Shown here: positions 29,833 through 38,613 of the stretch, in pieces
Numbering within the stretch: the stretch's first letter is position 1
Layout of the letters: every line of letters starts with the position of its first letter
DNA from: Akkermansiaceae bacterium
Lineage (GTDB): Bacteria; Verrucomicrobiota; Verrucomicrobiia; Verrucomicrobiales; Akkermansiaceae
Direction: 5' to 3'
Assembly: GCA_015062045.1 (NCBI GenBank)
Contig: SUVJ01000009.1
Coordinates: 1-44,981, forward strand
Length of the DNA: 44,981 nucleotides
Program-made: the position numbers and the translations under genes
The notes under the pieces: generated by a model
What the model was told of the DNA's origin: nothing
Databases searched by the model: none
Seen by the model: the letters and a program-made list of their open reading frames with translations, nothing else

Positions 29833-32439
29833 ATGGACAATCTTGATGAATACCAAACCCGCCGTAAAGCGGCTGAGGCGCGTCGCAGAAAAATCTGCGA
29901 CGACCGTAAGGCTAACCCCGTGCGCAAAGGCAGTTGGTGGAAGCGTTTTTTGATACGCACCTCCATTATCATGCTTATCCTTACGGCAGCCGGGGCTGTT
30001 TGTGCTTATGCCGGATTCAAGATTTTTACTGCAAAATATGAAAAATGGGCAGAGAAGTTTAATTTGGAGGACATCAATAACTTGGACCATCCCTGCATTA
30101 TATACGACCGCAACGGCAAAGAGATAGGGCGTATATATGATGAAAACCGCAGCTATGTCACCTATGATAAGATAGCCCCCAGTATGATAGATGCTCTTGT
30201 AGCACAAGAGGATAAAACGTTCTGGACCCACAAGGGGTATGACCCCGTGGGTATTTTGCGTGCTGCAAAAGAGGCTCTGGCTGCCGGTGGTGCGGCTAAC
30301 CAGGGTGCCTCCACCATTACTCAGCAGCTGGCTCGCAATGCGTATGATTTGGAGCGACGCGTGCAGGCCATGGGGGGCAGCCGCTACGAGCGTAAAATGG
30401 TGGAAATCTTCTTGGCCATGCGCATTGAGGAGAAATACTCCAAACGCCAGATTATGGAGTTTTACCTCAACCGCATTTACTTTGGCTGCGGTTACTATGG
30501 CATACGCTCTGCCTCGTTGGGGTATTTTGGTAAAGAACCCGCAGATTTAACGATAAGCGAGGCCGCCAGTATTGCCGCCCTCATTAAAAACCCGGAGAAC
30601 TACAACCCCATTCGCAACCATGCGCTGAACAAAAAGTGGCGCAATGATGTGATAGACCGCATGCAACGTGCAGATTACCTCACCTTAGAGGAGGCGGAGC
30701 GTCTTAAGCGTACGGAGTTGGTGCTCAATTCTCAGCCGATTCGGCGCCAGACCTCTCACTTGCATTCTCTGATTCAACAGCAGGCCATCAGCATCTTTAA
30801 GGACCCCGCCCGTGGTGAAGAGATTATCAAAAGCGCCGGTATCAAAATCTATACTACCATAGATAAGGACATGCAAGATGCCGCCATGGCATCTCTGGGA
30901 AACAAGCTCAAGGAGATAGAGTCCCGCAGCGACTACGCACACAAGCGTTTCTCTGACCCTGTGCCTGCGGATCAACCCGCTGTCCACAATTATTTGGATG
31001 GTGCCGTTTACGCCGTTGAGAACAAAACCGGTGCAACCTTGGTGTATGTGGCCGGGCGTAGTTTTGAGCGTGCCAATTATGATTTTATAGAATCCGGGCG
31101 GCGCCCTGTGGGTACGGCATTGCTGCCGTTTTTGTACATGTGTGCCTTTGATAACGGCTATACCCCGTGCTCCAGGTTAGTGGATGATGCCCTGGATAAT
31201 CGATTGGCCGGCATTGGTGGCACAGAGGGTATTTTGGGTGAATGGGGGCTTGAGACCGCAAAGGGGCGTTATCGGGACTCCGTAACCATTCGCCAGGCCT
31301 TGGCCGAGTCCAAAATTTCATCTGCCGCCCGTTTGGGAATTGCGCTGAGCTCTAACCCCCATGTAGGGAGCAAACCTTTTATCAATACCTTGATCAAGGT
31401 GGGTATTACCCCGCCCATGCGTAACCCCGGCAGCACAGAGGCCTGCCCGCAGTATTATCCGCGTGTTTACCTGGGTACGGAGCCCATGTCTCTCAAACAA
31501 ATGGTGATGGCTTATACCGTGTTCCCCAACTGCGGGCGCCGTGCCATTGCCCCTTACATTATTACCAAGATAACGGACAGCAACGGCACCATTTTGTGGG
31601 AGCGTAAGGATAACCTTAAGGGGGAGCTGCTTGCCGGCGCAACACCTTGCTCTGCGTTCCGTATTCACTCCATTTTAAAGGATGCCATGAGCAGTGGCTC
31701 TGCCGTGCGCGTGCGCACGTTTATGCCGGCCTCCTTTAAAGGGGCGGTTAAAACCGGCACTAATTACGACTTTGCGGATACTACGCTCTTTGCCTATGAC
31801 TCCTCTATCACCTGCGGTGTGTGGGTGGGGTTCCTCAATGAGCACTCAGCCATTTACCCCACGGCGTTTGCGTCGGATATTTGCTCCCCTATCATGGGTG
31901 CTGTGTTTCATGCGGCAGATGGCCGCTACCCCAATGAGGAGATTATGCCCCCGCCGGATACAGAGGCGGTGGAGATTTGCCGGGCATCCGGCATGCGCGC
32001 TACAGACCATTGCTATAAGAGCACCATTCGCGGTTGCAACTCCAGTTACGATATGCTGACCTACCGCGAGTATTTCCCCAAGGGGGATACCTCTTTAGCA
32101 ACATGCTCCGTGCACGGTGCAGGGAGTCCCACGTTGGGGGATTTCATTGAGTATGGCTCCGGCCACACATCCTCTACCCGTGTTTTACCGGTCATGCCGA
32201 TTTTGCCGAAGGCACCTGCCTTGAGCGGTGTTGACCCGTATGGTTGCCAGTTAACGCTTAACCCCCGTTACAAGAATGAGGAGGATATTGCTCAGGTCCG
32301 GCAACAGGCTGTGGAGGATGATACCCTGAGCGTTGAAAAAGTTACGGAAGAATCGGAGGAAGAAAAAAGAGATGTCCTCATTCCGCTTACTCCCCCGCGC
32401 CCGCTGCGCGTGCCCCCCATCTTGCCACTCGAAATTTAA
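29833..32439 (+). CDS. PBP1A-like peptidoglycan glycosyltransferase with degenerate transpeptidase domain
   Basis: An 868-residue class A penicillin-binding protein: a basic cytoplasmic tail, one transmembrane segment (about residues 38-60), a GT51 glycosyltransferase domain, then a transpeptidase fold and a Pro-rich tail. GT51 motifs are intact: EDKTFWTHKG, GASTITQQLARN, and RKMVEIFLAMRIEEKYSKRQ, so glycan-chain polymerisation is expected. The transpeptidase domain aligns around RRPVGTALLPFLY, but the nucleophile motif SxxK is T428-A-L-L431 and the second motif SxN is S493-K-I495; only KTGT (640-643) survives. Cross-linking activity is therefore probably lost. The start was moved from 29785 to ATG 29833, which fits the promoter. 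Confidence 0.88.
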   Translation: MDNLDEYQTRRKAAEARRRKICDDRKANPVRKGSWWKRFLIRTSIIMLILTAAGAVCAYAGFKIFTAKYEKWAEKFNLEDINNLDHPCIIYDRNGKEIGRIYDENRSYVTYDKIAPSMIDALVAQEDKTFWTHKGYDPVGILRAAKEALAAGGAANQGASTITQQLARNAYDLERRVQAMGGSRYERKMVEIFLAMRIEEKYSKRQIMEFYLNRIYFGCGYYGIRSASLGYFGKEPADLTISEAASIAALIKNPENYNPIRNHALNKKWRNDVIDRMQRADYLTLEEAERLKRTELVLNSQPIRRQTSHLHSLIQQQAISIFKDPARGEEIIKSAGIKIYTTIDKDMQDAAMASLGNKLKEIESRSDYAHKRFSDPVPADQPAVHNYLDGAVYAVENKTGATLVYVAGRSFERANYDFIESGRRPVGTALLPFLYMCAFDNGYTPCSRLVDDALDNRLAGIGGTEGILGEWGLETAKGRYRDSVTIRQALAESKISSAARLGIALSSNPHVGSKPFINTLIKVGITPPMRNPGSTEACPQYYPRVYLGTEPMSLKQMVMAYTVFPNCGRRAIAPYIITKITDSNGTILWERKDNLKGELLAGATPCSAFRIHSILKDAMSSGSAVRVRTFMPASFKGAVKTGTNYDFADTTLFAYDSSITCGVWVGFLNEHSAIYPTAFASDICSPIMGAVFHAADGRYPNEEIMPPPDTEAVEICRASGMRATDHCYKSTIRGCNSSYDMLTYREYFPKGDTSLATCSVHGAGSPTLGDFIEYGSGHTSSTRVLPVMPILPKAPALSGVDPYGCQLTLNPRYKNEEDIAQVRQQAVEDDTLSVEKVTEESEEEKRDVLIPLTPPRPLRVPPILPLEI

Positions 32440-32458
32440 GTACCTGATTTTTACCATT

Positions 32459-33862
32459 ATGTCCGCAGAAACCCTTACACTCGCTGCTACTCAAGAAAAA
32501 GCGTTCCGTATTAATATGGATAAACGCATCTACGGCACCTTTGCAGAGATTGGTGCCGGGCAGGAAACCGCCAACTGGTTTTTCCGCTCCTCCGGTGCCG
32601 CCGGCACGGTTGCCAAAACGATTTCAGCCTATGATATGACCGTGAGCGATACGCTGTACGGACCCGTGCGGCGCTACGTGTCTCAAGAGCGCCTTGAGCA
32701 GATGATGGATTACGAGTACACCCAGCTTATTAACCGTTTAGGTGAAAAGCGCGGGGCAGACACCTGCTTCTTTGCTTTTTGCAACACGGTAAAATGCAAG
32801 GGGTATCGGGATAACGGCCCGTGGTCTGCGTGGATTGGGGTGCGTTTTCAGCTGCGCCCGGAGGCCCCGCCCAGTGATTTTGTAATGCATGTGCGCCTGC
32901 TGGTGCCCGACCACGATATCCAGATGCGCGTGCTGGGCATATTGGGCGTAAACTTGCTCCATGCCCTTTACTACAACCGCGACCACATGGATGAGTTTGT
33001 CAACAGCGTGGCAGATAACCTGGACCGCAGCATGTACGAGGTGGACTTTATGCGATTCTCCGGGCATGGGTTCGGCATGTTTGATAACCGCTTGTTAGCG
33101 TTGGAGCTGGTCAGAAACGGCTTGTCGGAGGCCACGCTCTTCTGCCCGGATGGCTCCGTGGCTCAGCCTGCGGATTTTCTTTACAAACGCCCCATTGTTT
33201 TGATGCGTGGCAGTTTCTTGCCCCTCTGCAAGATTCACCTGGAGATGATGGACAGTGTGCGTGCCAAGTTTACGGAAAGTCTGCCGCCCGAGCAGCATGA
33301 AAAAGTGGTGGATATTTGTGAGATCTCCCTCTCTAACCTCTTGCGTGGTAAGGAGGTAGACTTGCTGGACTTTATTGACCGCGTGGATGCCTTGGCGGCT
33401 TTGGGTAAAACGGTGATGGTGACGGATATCACACACTTCCACCGCATCTCCACCTTGCTGAATCAATATACCAAAGAGCCCGTAGCCATTGCGCTTTCCA
33501 TTGGCCTGCTCAACGAGCTGTTCAAAGACAAATGGGCAGATATACCCGGTGGAATCCTGGCCAGCACGGGGCTGTGCTTTGTCAACAAGACCAGGTTTTA
33601 TGTCACCCCGTGGATTAACCGCAAAACCGGTGAGTTTGTGACAGCCGGCACCTATGTTGCCCCGGAGAAATACCAACACCTCTACAAGCACCTGCTTGAA
33701 AACGGTGATATCATCTCCGTGCCTTATTTCAATCAAAAATTGCTCTTCCGTACCCCGCGCGACATTGTGCACATGATTAATGATGGTGACGAGTGCTGGA
33801 AAGAGTATGTACCCCAAGAGGCATACCGCATGGCAGAGCACCTCAAAACGCTTGAACAATAA
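32459..33862 (+). CDS. conserved protein of unknown function
   Basis: A 467-residue soluble protein with no signal peptide or membrane segment. Its N-terminal region (KRIYGTFAEIGAGQETANWFF, then a Gly/Ala-rich stretch and ISAYDMTVSDTLYG) belongs to a widely conserved bacterial family; I recall homologues carrying conflicting names such as TonB-dependent receptor or nicotinate-nucleotide adenylyltransferase. Neither name is supported here: there is no beta-barrel, and no nucleotidyltransferase HxGH motif. Start ATG 32459 follows the PBP gene by 19 bases, and its last base overlaps the sufS start (TAATG), so the three genes are probably co-transcribed. Confidence 0.75.
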   Translation: MSAETLTLAATQEKAFRINMDKRIYGTFAEIGAGQETANWFFRSSGAAGTVAKTISAYDMTVSDTLYGPVRRYVSQERLEQMMDYEYTQLINRLGEKRGADTCFFAFCNTVKCKGYRDNGPWSAWIGVRFQLRPEAPPSDFVMHVRLLVPDHDIQMRVLGILGVNLLHALYYNRDHMDEFVNSVADNLDRSMYEVDFMRFSGHGFGMFDNRLLALELVRNGLSEATLFCPDGSVAQPADFLYKRPIVLMRGSFLPLCKIHLEMMDSVRAKFTESLPPEQHEKVVDICEISLSNLLRGKEVDLLDFIDRVDALAALGKTVMVTDITHFHRISTLLNQYTKEPVAIALSIGLLNELFKDKWADIPGGILASTGLCFVNKTRFYVTPWINRKTGEFVTAGTYVAPEKYQHLYKHLLENGDIISVPYFNQKLLFRTPRDIVHMINDGDECWKEYVPQEAYRMAEHLKTLEQ

Positions 33863-35100: not shown

Positions 35101-37119
35101 ATGATAGACCCTGCTAAATTACGCGAGCTCCTTGAGGATTATCGTTCTGTCTATAAGGAATCTCGTCAAAAACGCGTTAAATTAACTCTGGAGGCATCCG
35201 TTGCATTTCGTCAGGCGTGGGATGAATGGAGTAGCAATCCCTCCGACCGTAACGGATTGTTTAAGTGCATCGATGCGCTGAAAATAGCAGTGGATGTGTT
35301 CGGCGGTATTTATAATTATACCTATGTGTTTGGTGGTAAACGTGGGGGCTACAATTATGGAATGCTGGGGCTCATGTCTGAAGACTTGGAGGGTGAGGTT
35401 AAAGGTACGGGGGCAATCCTGGTACATGAAATGCTTACAACCCTGTTTGAACCCGGTGATATTAAAAACCGTTATGTGAAATTTGCGGATAAGGCTGAGC
35501 AGAGAGTGGAGAGTATTCGCCTTGCCGGTAAACTCAGGGAGTCTGATGGCCATCTCCAGCAGATTCACCCGGCTTCTGTTTATTGTTGGTTAAAATCCCC
35601 TGCCGATCACTACTACTTCTTTACCAATGAATACGTAAACCTGTGTGCTGCGGCGATGGGGGCTCCTGCTCTCGGTGGACGTCGTGCCAATTTCCTGGAA
35701 AGTGTTTATGCATATATGCAGGAGCTCAAGACGGAGTTCCTCCGTGAGTGGCATGACAATGTGTCAGATGAAGAACTATCTGCGCTGGTATGTGATTTTG
35801 TGGACTACGTGGGCTCTACCGTCAGGGAGCAACGCCAACAACCTACCTCCGGGTGCTGGTTGCTTATCGCGAACCCGAAACAGTGGTCGTTTGCCTCATT
35901 GGCCGTGGGTGAGGAGGTTTCTTATAGCCTTGTTAATGAAGATGGCAAAAAACGCCAGATTTATAAGCATTTTATGGCGGCTCGCGTAGGTGATAAAGTT
36001 GCTTGTTATGAGTCTTCTCCTGCGTGTGCTTTAGTGGCTTTTGCAGAGGTTTCTGCAGAACAGGATGGTACCTGTATTCGTTTCAAAAAAACGAGCAATC
36101 TGCAAACTCCCGTTCTTCTTGCGGATTTGAAAGCACACGCCGTTCTTCGAGAGCGTTTTGAGCATATACAAGGTAGCTTGTTTGATTTGACTCGTGAGCA
36201 ATATGCCGCATTGGAGCGCATGACTCAGCCGGCAATGCGTTGGCAAGGTCCGCACAATCGCATCCTCTTCGGCGCACCCGGCACGGGCAAGAGCTATTTG
36301 CTCAATGCGGATGCCGTTGCCTATTTCGGCGAGTCTCGCATGGAGCGTGTTACTTTTCACCCCGAGTATACCTCGTTTGACTTCATCGGCTCTTACATGC
36401 CAACGGTGCAGGGGCGTGGAACAGCGCAGGAGCATATCACCTACAGCTTTGTGCCCGGCCCGTTTGCCAGAGTACTGCGTAAGGCCCTGCTGCACCCGGA
36501 AACGCCTTATCTTTTGTTGATTGAAGAAATTAACCGCGCCAATGCAGCCTCGGTATTTGCTGATATTTTCCAGCTGTTGGATCGTGATAAAAAGGGGCAG
36601 AGCCTCTATTTTATCACTCCCACACCCCATCTTGCTGAGTATTTGGGGCTGGCGGAGGATGCTTCCTTACGCTTGCCCGATAACCTTTATTTGTGGGCAA
36701 CCATGAACAGTGCGGATCAAGGCGTATTCCCCATGGATACGGCATTTAAACGCCGATGGAACTATGAGTATTGCGGTATAGATGATGCCAAGGATGCTCT
36801 GCTCAGTGTCGGCTATTGTGCTGCAGATTGGAATAAACTGCGCAGCCACGTCAACAAACTGCTCCAGCATGCCGGTGTGAATGAGGATAAGCAAATGGGG
36901 CCATTTTTCCTCTCTGCCGTTGAGTTGGAAACCGTGGATTCCTTCTTATCTGCCGTTAAGAGCAAAGTACTCATGTACTTATATGAGGATGCTGCCCGCC
37001 ACAAGAGAGCTGCCGTGTTCAAAAAATCAAAAGCCCGCTATTCAGAGCTGTGCTCCTTCAATAGTTGCGAGGTAGATGAGATTATAGAGGAACTGTTCCT
37101 TGAAATTACCGAGGGGTAA
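35101..37119 (+). CDS. McrB-like GTPase with EVE domain (type IV restriction)
   Basis: A 672-residue AAA+ restriction motor. Residues 1-245 form a domain I do not recognise. Residues about 251-373 match an EVE domain: GCWLLIANPKQWSF, VGDKVACYES, LVAFAEVS, and SLFDLTREQYAALERM. EVE domains read modified bases. The McrB NTPase follows: Walker A GAPGTGKS (391-398), FHPEYTSFDFIGSYMP, Walker B LLLIEEINRAN (about 471-481), the sensor MNSADQ, and RRW (McrB of E. coli has MNTADRS). It abuts the McrC-like gene without a gap. There is no methyltransferase beside it, so cutting of modified DNA is expected. GTP rather than ATP use follows from family knowledge. Confidence 0.88.
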   Translation: MIDPAKLRELLEDYRSVYKESRQKRVKLTLEASVAFRQAWDEWSSNPSDRNGLFKCIDALKIAVDVFGGIYNYTYVFGGKRGGYNYGMLGLMSEDLEGEVKGTGAILVHEMLTTLFEPGDIKNRYVKFADKAEQRVESIRLAGKLRESDGHLQQIHPASVYCWLKSPADHYYFFTNEYVNLCAAAMGAPALGGRRANFLESVYAYMQELKTEFLREWHDNVSDEELSALVCDFVDYVGSTVREQRQQPTSGCWLLIANPKQWSFASLAVGEEVSYSLVNEDGKKRQIYKHFMAARVGDKVACYESSPACALVAFAEVSAEQDGTCIRFKKTSNLQTPVLLADLKAHAVLRERFEHIQGSLFDLTREQYAALERMTQPAMRWQGPHNRILFGAPGTGKSYLLNADAVAYFGESRMERVTFHPEYTSFDFIGSYMPTVQGRGTAQEHITYSFVPGPFARVLRKALLHPETPYLLLIEEINRANAASVFADIFQLLDRDKKGQSLYFITPTPHLAEYLGLAEDASLRLPDNLYLWATMNSADQGVFPMDTAFKRRWNYEYCGIDDAKDALLSVGYCAADWNKLRSHVNKLLQHAGVNEDKQMGPFFLSAVELETVDSFLSAVKSKVLMYLYEDAARHKRAAVFKKSKARYSELCSFNSCEVDEIIEELFLEITEG

Positions 37120-38613
37120 ATGCGTTCATCCTCAACAGCCGGAGCGGTTCATTCTCTCTCTTGGGTGAGAGAGCGCGTGGCGTATTCTGCCGATACCCTG
37201 TGTGAGCTGTTTGGGGTGCCTTCATCTGAAAAAGCCTCGTTGATGACATATCTGCAAGCAAAGCGCATCATTAGCCGCCGTGGCTTTGATAATATTGGGG
37301 GAACGGAGGATGCGGAACCGTTGGAATCTTACATCACCGGGGCGGATTATTCGTTTCGCTTTGTCGGCATGTATTGTAGGGCAGGTTATATGGTGTGCGT
37401 GCTCCCTAAGTATGCCAATGCAGAGTTGTTGAAGGTGCCGGACCAAGGGGATTTTCACAGACCTTGTCCGGCAGCACGCCGTGCCATTTTTTCGCAGGTA
37501 TTGAAAGCCGTACGCCGTTATAAACATTCTGCTCAATTCGAGTTGCCGGAGAGTCAGCAGGATTTTGCAGACTCAAACTATTTATCATTACTGATTACAC
37601 TGCTGAGCGATTTTGTTGAAAATGGTGTCTACCGAGACAATCGTACAACAGATACCTTGAATGCGCGTGGCAGAATCCTGTGGTCTGCCACCATCCGTAA
37701 AACAAATGCAGTGCTGCAAGAGGGCGGGCCGGTGTATCCTGATGTGGTTACTCGCAAAACAGAGTTTGAGCCGCAGCACCCCATTACGCTGTTGCATCGG
37801 CGTATTGCGGGGGAGTGTTACCACTGTTTACATGACCTGGGATTAATTGATTTGCTGGATTTGCCGGTGATTGATGATGAAGAGGTTCAAGCTTCATACG
37901 ATGCCGCACACATGCTGTATTTAGTGGAGTCTGAGTTGAATGTTCAATTTGATTCTCGTCGGCGCTACATTTTAACCTTGTTACGTGAGTATTTGCTTAA
38001 ACAATCGAGTGCAGATTCGGCTCAGGTGTCGGAATACGCGTTTGGGTGTTCATCCTTTAATCTTTTGTGGGAGGATGCTTGCCGTAGCGTACTGGGGCAT
38101 GATTATTCTCGCCTTTGGTCGATTTTACCACCCGATTGGCGTTTCCCTGACAGAACGCTGCCTGCGACCAAAAGCCTTGAGCCGGATATTATTATATGTG
38201 ATGAAACCGGCACATGCGTATTGGATGCCAAGTATTACCTGCCGATGGAATCCGCCACGGGGCTGCCGTCCGGACTCCCCGGCATAGAGTCTGTTACCAA
38301 GCAGTTTCTTTATCAACAAGCTTTGTTAACCCCGGATTCTATAGAGCTAACTAAGGGGCGCATGGTTCCCCCCATTTACAATGCATTTCTGATGCCGTTG
38401 CCGCAAAACACAGCACAGCATAATAAGACCGTGACTTATTATGCCACGGTTACGATGCCCCTGTTCCAGAATATGGAGATTATCGTCCTATGCATCTCCC
38501 CAAGCAAGTTATTTGCCTGTTATGCAGACAACATCAGTGCCCCGTATTTGAGGGAATCCGTATGGCACTCCATTCGAGCAAATGCATCTGCTGCTTTATG
38601 TTCTAAGGCTTGA
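37120..38613 (+). CDS. McrC/LlaJI-type restriction endonuclease subunit
   Basis: A 497-residue partner of the McrB-like protein, beginning right after its stop codon (TAAATG). The N-terminal and middle parts match the LlaJI/McrC family: YSFRFVGMYCRAGYMVCVLPKY and the block RGRILWSATIRKT. The nuclease core is a PD-(D/E)xK site: PD at 355-356 and DAK at 369-371 in a strand-turn-strand (EPDIIICDETGTCVLDAKYY). The acidic residue before Ala-Lys is Asp instead of the more common Glu, which is allowed in the superfamily. It should cut DNA when driven by the GTPase. LlaJI-type systems normally carry methyltransferases; none is seen here. Confidence 0.85.
   Translation: MRSSSTAGAVHSLSWVRERVAYSADTLCELFGVPSSEKASLMTYLQAKRIISRRGFDNIGGTEDAEPLESYITGADYSFRFVGMYCRAGYMVCVLPKYANAELLKVPDQGDFHRPCPAARRAIFSQVLKAVRRYKHSAQFELPESQQDFADSNYLSLLITLLSDFVENGVYRDNRTTDTLNARGRILWSATIRKTNAVLQEGGPVYPDVVTRKTEFEPQHPITLLHRRIAGECYHCLHDLGLIDLLDLPVIDDEEVQASYDAAHMLYLVESELNVQFDSRRRYILTLLREYLLKQSSADSAQVSEYAFGCSSFNLLWEDACRSVLGHDYSRLWSILPPDWRFPDRTLPATKSLEPDIIICDETGTCVLDAKYYLPMESATGLPSGLPGIESVTKQFLYQQALLTPDSIELTKGRMVPPIYNAFLMPLPQNTAQHNKTVTYYATVTMPLFQNMEIIVLCISPSKLFACYADNISAPYLRESVWHSIRANASAALCSKA

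Follow-up and report, generated by a model that had tools for sequence, protein, structure and literature searches.

We found that a class A PBP-like protein of an uncultured Akkermansia combines intact glycosyltransferase (GT) motifs with a transpeptidase domain that is, in the reading best supported by the sequence, non-catalytic. The gene lies in a stretch of 44,981 nucleotides from a MAG that was analysed as a whole (the window); all coordinates are those of the window. It is established PBP chemistry that acylation is abolished when the SxxK lysine is lost. Because this lysine is missing and acylation is not expected, the Akkermansia protein should polymerise glycan only; that is, it should neither cross-link strands nor be acylated by beta-lactams. 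The protein is probably a membrane-anchored glycan polymerase whose transpeptidase domain is non-catalytic and has been repurposed, and its strands are probably cross-linked in trans. The MDNLDEYQ N-terminus is kept in orthologues, and the features of the gene are as follows.

29833..32439, + strand: class A PBP-like gene, 868 aa, transpeptidase domain putatively non-catalytic (open reading frame without internal stop; profile and structure alignments)
29947..30018, + strand: N-terminal membrane anchor, residues about 39-62 (hydrophobic stretch; AlphaFold2 helix 35-74)
30115..30666, + strand: GT51 glycosyltransferase domain, residues 95-278 (PF00912, 195-200 bits)
30208..30237, + strand: GT51 motif I, EDKTFWTHKG, with catalytic Glu126
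30391..30405, + strand: GT51 motif III, RKMVE, with Glu191
30991..31902, + strand: transpeptidase-fold domain, residues 387-690, putatively non-catalytic (PF00905 sub-threshold; AlphaFold2 and Foldseek; dN/dS)
31111..31131, + strand: GTALLPF at the position of the catalytic SxxK, residues 427-433 (Ser to Thr at 31114-31116; Lys to Leu at 31123-31125)
31216..31254, + strand: signature GGTEGILGEWGLE specific to the clade, residues 462-474, on the loop that joins SxxK to SxN (column conservation)
31309..31317, + strand: SKI, the SxN motif with Asn to Ile (alignments)
31750..31761, + strand: KTGT motif, kept in the window protein (KSGT, KCGT, KPGT or QTGT in relatives)
31903..32436, + strand: C-terminal extension with conserved C716, C727 and C758 and a disordered tail (orthologues; AlphaFold2 model)

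Profile searches gave a strong match to GT51 (PF00912, 195 bits) and a score below threshold for the transpeptidase domain (PF00905, 16.5 bits against a cut-off of 22.1). The protein also stayed under the curated cut-off of the NCBI PBP_1a_fam model (TIGR02074; 357 bits, cut-off 508.75) and under that of the monofunctional glycosyltransferase model (TIGR02070; 122.5 bits, cut-off 182.65), and it has a transpeptidase-fold domain in addition to its GT domain. A structure-guided alignment with PBP1A, proposed as a check in the original prediction, placed G-T-A-L-L-P-F on G-S-S-[FI]-K-P-F and S-K-I on S-R-N or S-K-N of the solved structures 4oon and 5u2g. That is, the catalytic SxxK and SxN are absent from the window protein, which has T-A-L-L and S-K-I instead, and KTG is present. 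The original prediction had read VGTALLPF at 31111-31131, with Thr and Leu replacing Ser and Lys. The two replacements are as described; the span itself encodes GTALLPF, and the V is at 31108-31110. The positions predicted for SKI and the retention of KTGT agreed with what we found. In the AlphaFold2 model a helix begins at residue 427, like the catalytic-serine helix of PBPs. We also looked across the whole protein for a substitute SxxK. None was conserved among orthologues (the best, in 8/18, is N-terminal and precedes the membrane anchor), and we rejected an alternative SxxK as the active site.

Full-length orthologues (31-40% identity) were found in other families of the order and class, and the clade that they form is present in many Verrucomicrobiae families alongside a separate canonical PBP1A. 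In a tree computed under a mixture model, with the motif and signature columns left out, a branch with SH-aLRT 99 split 33 clade members from 20 canonical PBP1A sequences; a larger tree was also built, and the sequences for the survey and the trees were sampled within the phylum. From these sequences we infer that this is an ancient clade of class A PBPs, a Verrucomicrobiae paralogue of PBP1A. All 24 canonical paralogues keep Ser, Lys, Asn and both GT51 Glu. The position of the catalytic serine is Thr in 78 and Ser in four of 82 clade members. The SxxK lysine is kept in 9/82 and the SxN asparagine in 40/82, and the two GT51 catalytic Glu are each present in 82/82.

The transpeptidase site thus appears to have eroded class-wide, with Ser to Thr nearly fixed and Lys and Asn variable. 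All 31 Akkermansiaceae sequences are without both the SxxK lysine and the SxN asparagine, and in the family's other genera the motifs read G-T-x-x-[LFYH]-P and SK[IV]. By this pattern, the noncatalytic state would be ancestral to the whole genus Akkermansia and to the family. Outside Akkermansiaceae the orthologues mostly have G-T-A-F-x-P, with Lys in a minority. The fewest changes required on the tree were four for Ser/Thr and nine for Lys. This suggests an early change of Ser to Thr and repeated loss of Lys, in a tree that does not separate reversion from repeated loss; Asn seems to have been lost in the Akkermansiaceae ancestor and in a few other lines. Activity may persist in parts of the clade, given the four members with Ser and the nine with Lys. 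One member (L098) has a complete canonical transpeptidase site.

The invariance of the two catalytic Glu bears out the claim in the original prediction that the GT51 motifs are complete. It also bears on a different reading, in which the protein acts solely as scaffold or regulator and its GT domain, too, is unused as an enzyme. The new conserved residues in the transpeptidase domain are of the type expected for partner binding, and a scaffold role of that domain is possible. However, the GT51 catalytic motifs are invariant in about 80 divergent members, and by dN/dS the GT domain is the most constrained region of the protein. We consider a wholly non-enzymatic protein quite unlikely.

The near-fixation of Thr could instead mean that the protein is a threonine PBP, with Thr428 as nucleophile and the KTG lysine (or the TxxK lysine where it is kept) as base. 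The conservation of T428 equals that expected of a catalytic residue, and this counts against the non-catalytic reading: Thr ranks 25th in conservation among 304 domain positions, and Lys 224th. Several relatives have T-x-x-K with complete SxN and KTGT motifs, and one of the clade sequences (L097) scores 74.6 bits against PF00905. But in Akkermansia the SxxK lysine (position 431) and the SxN asparagine are both missing, a loss of lysine that should by itself abolish acylation, and in relatives the KTG drifts to KPGT, RPGT, KGGT and QTST. A threonine nucleophile therefore seems very unlikely.

We also weighed the notion that the transpeptidase domain is functionless and has been decaying since duplication. 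The motif residues are gone, and a second Akkermansia GT51 protein (L003) illustrates how extensive decay can be. In contrast, selection on the transpeptidase domain is strongly purifying. For the closest pair in which dS was not saturated (97% identity), dN/dS was 0.018 for the transpeptidase domain and 0.015 for GT51; in further pairs, in which dS was saturated, it was 0.03-0.08 and 0.02-0.07, respectively. The domain is also predicted to fold. AlphaFold2 gave it a pTM of 0.89, and Foldseek with the predicted domain returned class A PBPs, active ones among them, at a TM of about 0.7 (0.64-0.77); the full model returned the same family. The model is consistent with the prediction that the transpeptidase fold is kept, and full length is retained across the families of the class. 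In addition, the very domain that would be decaying carries a near-invariant signature specific to the clade, G-x-L-G-E-W-G-x-E (residues 466-474), between the SxxK and SxN positions. Conservation within the clade is 1.00 at G466, 0.99 at G469, 0.99 at E470, 0.96 at G472 and 1.00 at E474, and these residues are rare in the canonical PBP1A paralogues. The signature is common to clade members that keep Lys and those that have lost it, and pLDDT is lowest (about 50-60) at the GEWG loop. Decay was rejected on dN/dS and predicted fold, and we regard it as highly improbable. The signature, the constraint and the fold together therefore point to repurposing and not to erosion of the domain.

Within Akkermansia the substitutions are uniform. 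The survey of related genomes suggested in the original prediction yielded 70 distinct Akkermansia sequences, and T428 and L431 were each present in 70/70. Residue 495 was Ile in 67, Val in two and Thr in one, so the SxN asparagine is lost in all; KTGT has become KSGT in about half. An orthologue was present in 58 of 59 sampled genomes of the genus (in G012 as a mere fragment at the edge of a contig), and the lone genome without one (G010) is an assembly that is 84% complete. Isolates of A. muciniphila and A. glycaniphila have the orthologue and are represented among the 70 sequences. Among named records the nearest, at 97%, is a MAG from goat cecum. Because T428, L431 and the replacement of Asn at residue 495 recur in distinct sequences, isolates included, and the helix start at 427 and independent alignments concur, the chance that sequencing or assembly error or a misaligned active site explains the motif loss is negligible, even though the window sequence derives from a MAG.

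To return to a glycan polymerase with a repurposed domain, the following sequence of events would fit these results. The D,D-transpeptidase site would have been given up in the Verrucomicrobiae paralogue of PBP1A, starting with a change of Ser to Thr close to or at the root of the clade; most lineages would then have lost Lys, and Akkermansiaceae the SxN asparagine as well. The transpeptidase domain would have stayed folded, rebuilt around the conserved GxLGEWGxE loop. The GT51 domain would polymerise lipid II into glycan strands. Cross-linking would occur in trans, putatively by the canonical PBP1A and class B PBPs, by L,D-transpeptidases, or by both, and the dead domain would bind a partner or nascent stem peptides without chemistry. 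It is possible, and we suggest it tentatively, that the L,D-transpeptidases are the cross-linking partner. More doubtful is the specific notion that the dead domain is a binding module that uses the GxLGEWGxE loop and the fixed Thr to recruit L,D-transpeptidases or to present stem peptides. If this scheme is true, a penicillin-insensitive glycan polymerase together with 3-3 cross-linking would be a permanent feature of wall growth in Akkermansia.

The other PBPs of the genome, which the original prediction had proposed looking for, include a canonical PBP1A (L002; S-L-F-K, SRN, KTGT), a PBP1C-like protein that is cut by a contig end (L004; S-T-L-K, SQN) and two proteins with strong stand-alone transpeptidase matches, which we take to be class B PBPs. 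The genome also encodes 11 YkuD L,D-transpeptidases and 2 S11 D,D-carboxypeptidases. Among 113 genomes of the class, the median YkuD number per family was 6-17 in families with the clade vs 0-12 in those without it, the families being related and not phylogenetically independent. Shared descent from one ancestor could account for this correlation, and the YkuD count is 12 in one family with only the canonical PBP1A.

The fourth GT51 protein of the genome (L003, L282; on contig C123) has no recognisable transpeptidase motif. It and its relatives (L272-L281) are about 585-640 aa long and have lost all transpeptidase motifs, and the protein was present in all Akkermansia genomes examined for it. 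Two of the four GT51 proteins in the genome are thus without a working transpeptidase site, as judged by their motifs. In a genome of another genus (G063) a homologue of this second protein adjoins the canonical PBP1A gene, suggesting tandem duplication.

The window protein resembles the class A PBPs of known structure (PBP1A of Pseudomonas aeruginosa, 4oon; Haemophilus influenzae, 5u2g; Acinetobacter baumannii, 3udf) in domain order, GT51 motifs, transpeptidase fold and KTGT. Unlike PBP1A, it has TxxL for SxxK and SKI for SxN, with the GxLGEWGxE loop between them, and it scores below both the NCBI PBP_1a_fam and the Pfam transpeptidase cut-offs. Its expected activity, glycan polymerisation only, is that of the monofunctional GT51 enzymes (MgtA/Mgt). 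In contrast to these, it keeps a full, conserved domain of about 300 residues with the transpeptidase fold, and its score falls below the mono_pep_trsgly cut-off. Natural pseudoenzyme class A PBPs are, to our knowledge, little described. The closest parallels are engineered: E. coli PBP1b S510A and a C. difficile PBP1 transpeptidase mutant retain the GT and have lost transpeptidase chemistry, whereas the loss in Akkermansia arose naturally, is fixed in genus and family, and goes together with newly conserved residues. PBP1b S510A serves as the source of glycosyltransferase activity for YcbB-mediated cross-linking, with YcbB and DacA doing the rest (PMC5089857). In C. difficile the transpeptidase activity of PBP1 is needed for growth and is dispensable for division (PMC12539705).

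One point against our reading is that peptidoglycan of Verrucomicrobium spinosum, a species open to targeted mutagenesis, has been described as having a canonical composition (PMC12283558); no measurement of 3-3 cross-links was found in the main text of that paper, and class A PBPs are absent from the main text of the V. spinosum essential-genome paper. A. muciniphila was listed among the classical aPBP species in a 2021 survey, and the passages found in it make no mention of the clade (PMC8406291). Targeted full-text searches of a limited library of open papers found no earlier description of the clade. If our reading is right, a noncatalytic class A PBP has gone to fixation in a gut genus of medical relevance and across much of the class to which it belongs, and genome surveys that score this protein as bifunctional overstate both the capacity for D,D-cross-linking and the number of beta-lactam targets. 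The clade also offers a natural system in which to ask what a transpeptidase domain does besides chemistry, and whether supplying L,D-transpeptidases is a routine task of class A glycosyltransferases.

We found no operon partner of the PBP gene that is conserved class-wide. In Akkermansiaceae the gene at 32456-33862 lies directly downstream of the PBP gene or one gene off, and in one other family a homologue is 3.8 kb from it. Its product has no Pfam or NCBIfam match, is better conserved than the PBP, and contains a degenerate RGSFxPxxxxHLEM stretch (seen by eye) that recalls nucleotidylyltransferases. In A. muciniphila and other genera (L187, L193-L204, L271) a membrane-protein gene lies between the two. 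This membrane protein has a zinc-ribbon-like N-terminus and no Pfam match, and neither the window lineage nor A. glycaniphila has its gene there. Upstream, a divergent Methyltransf_28 (MidA-like) gene adjoins the PBP gene in 17/27 loci of the class (L193, L201, L252-L257 and others); it is not beside the Akkermansia copies. Farther along the window, at 35101-38613, genes for an AAA (McrB-like) protein and an LlaJI-type restriction endonuclease, likely a restriction system, sit between a sufS-like gene and an aspartyl-tRNA synthetase gene. Restriction genes at this site were found only in the two closest relatives.
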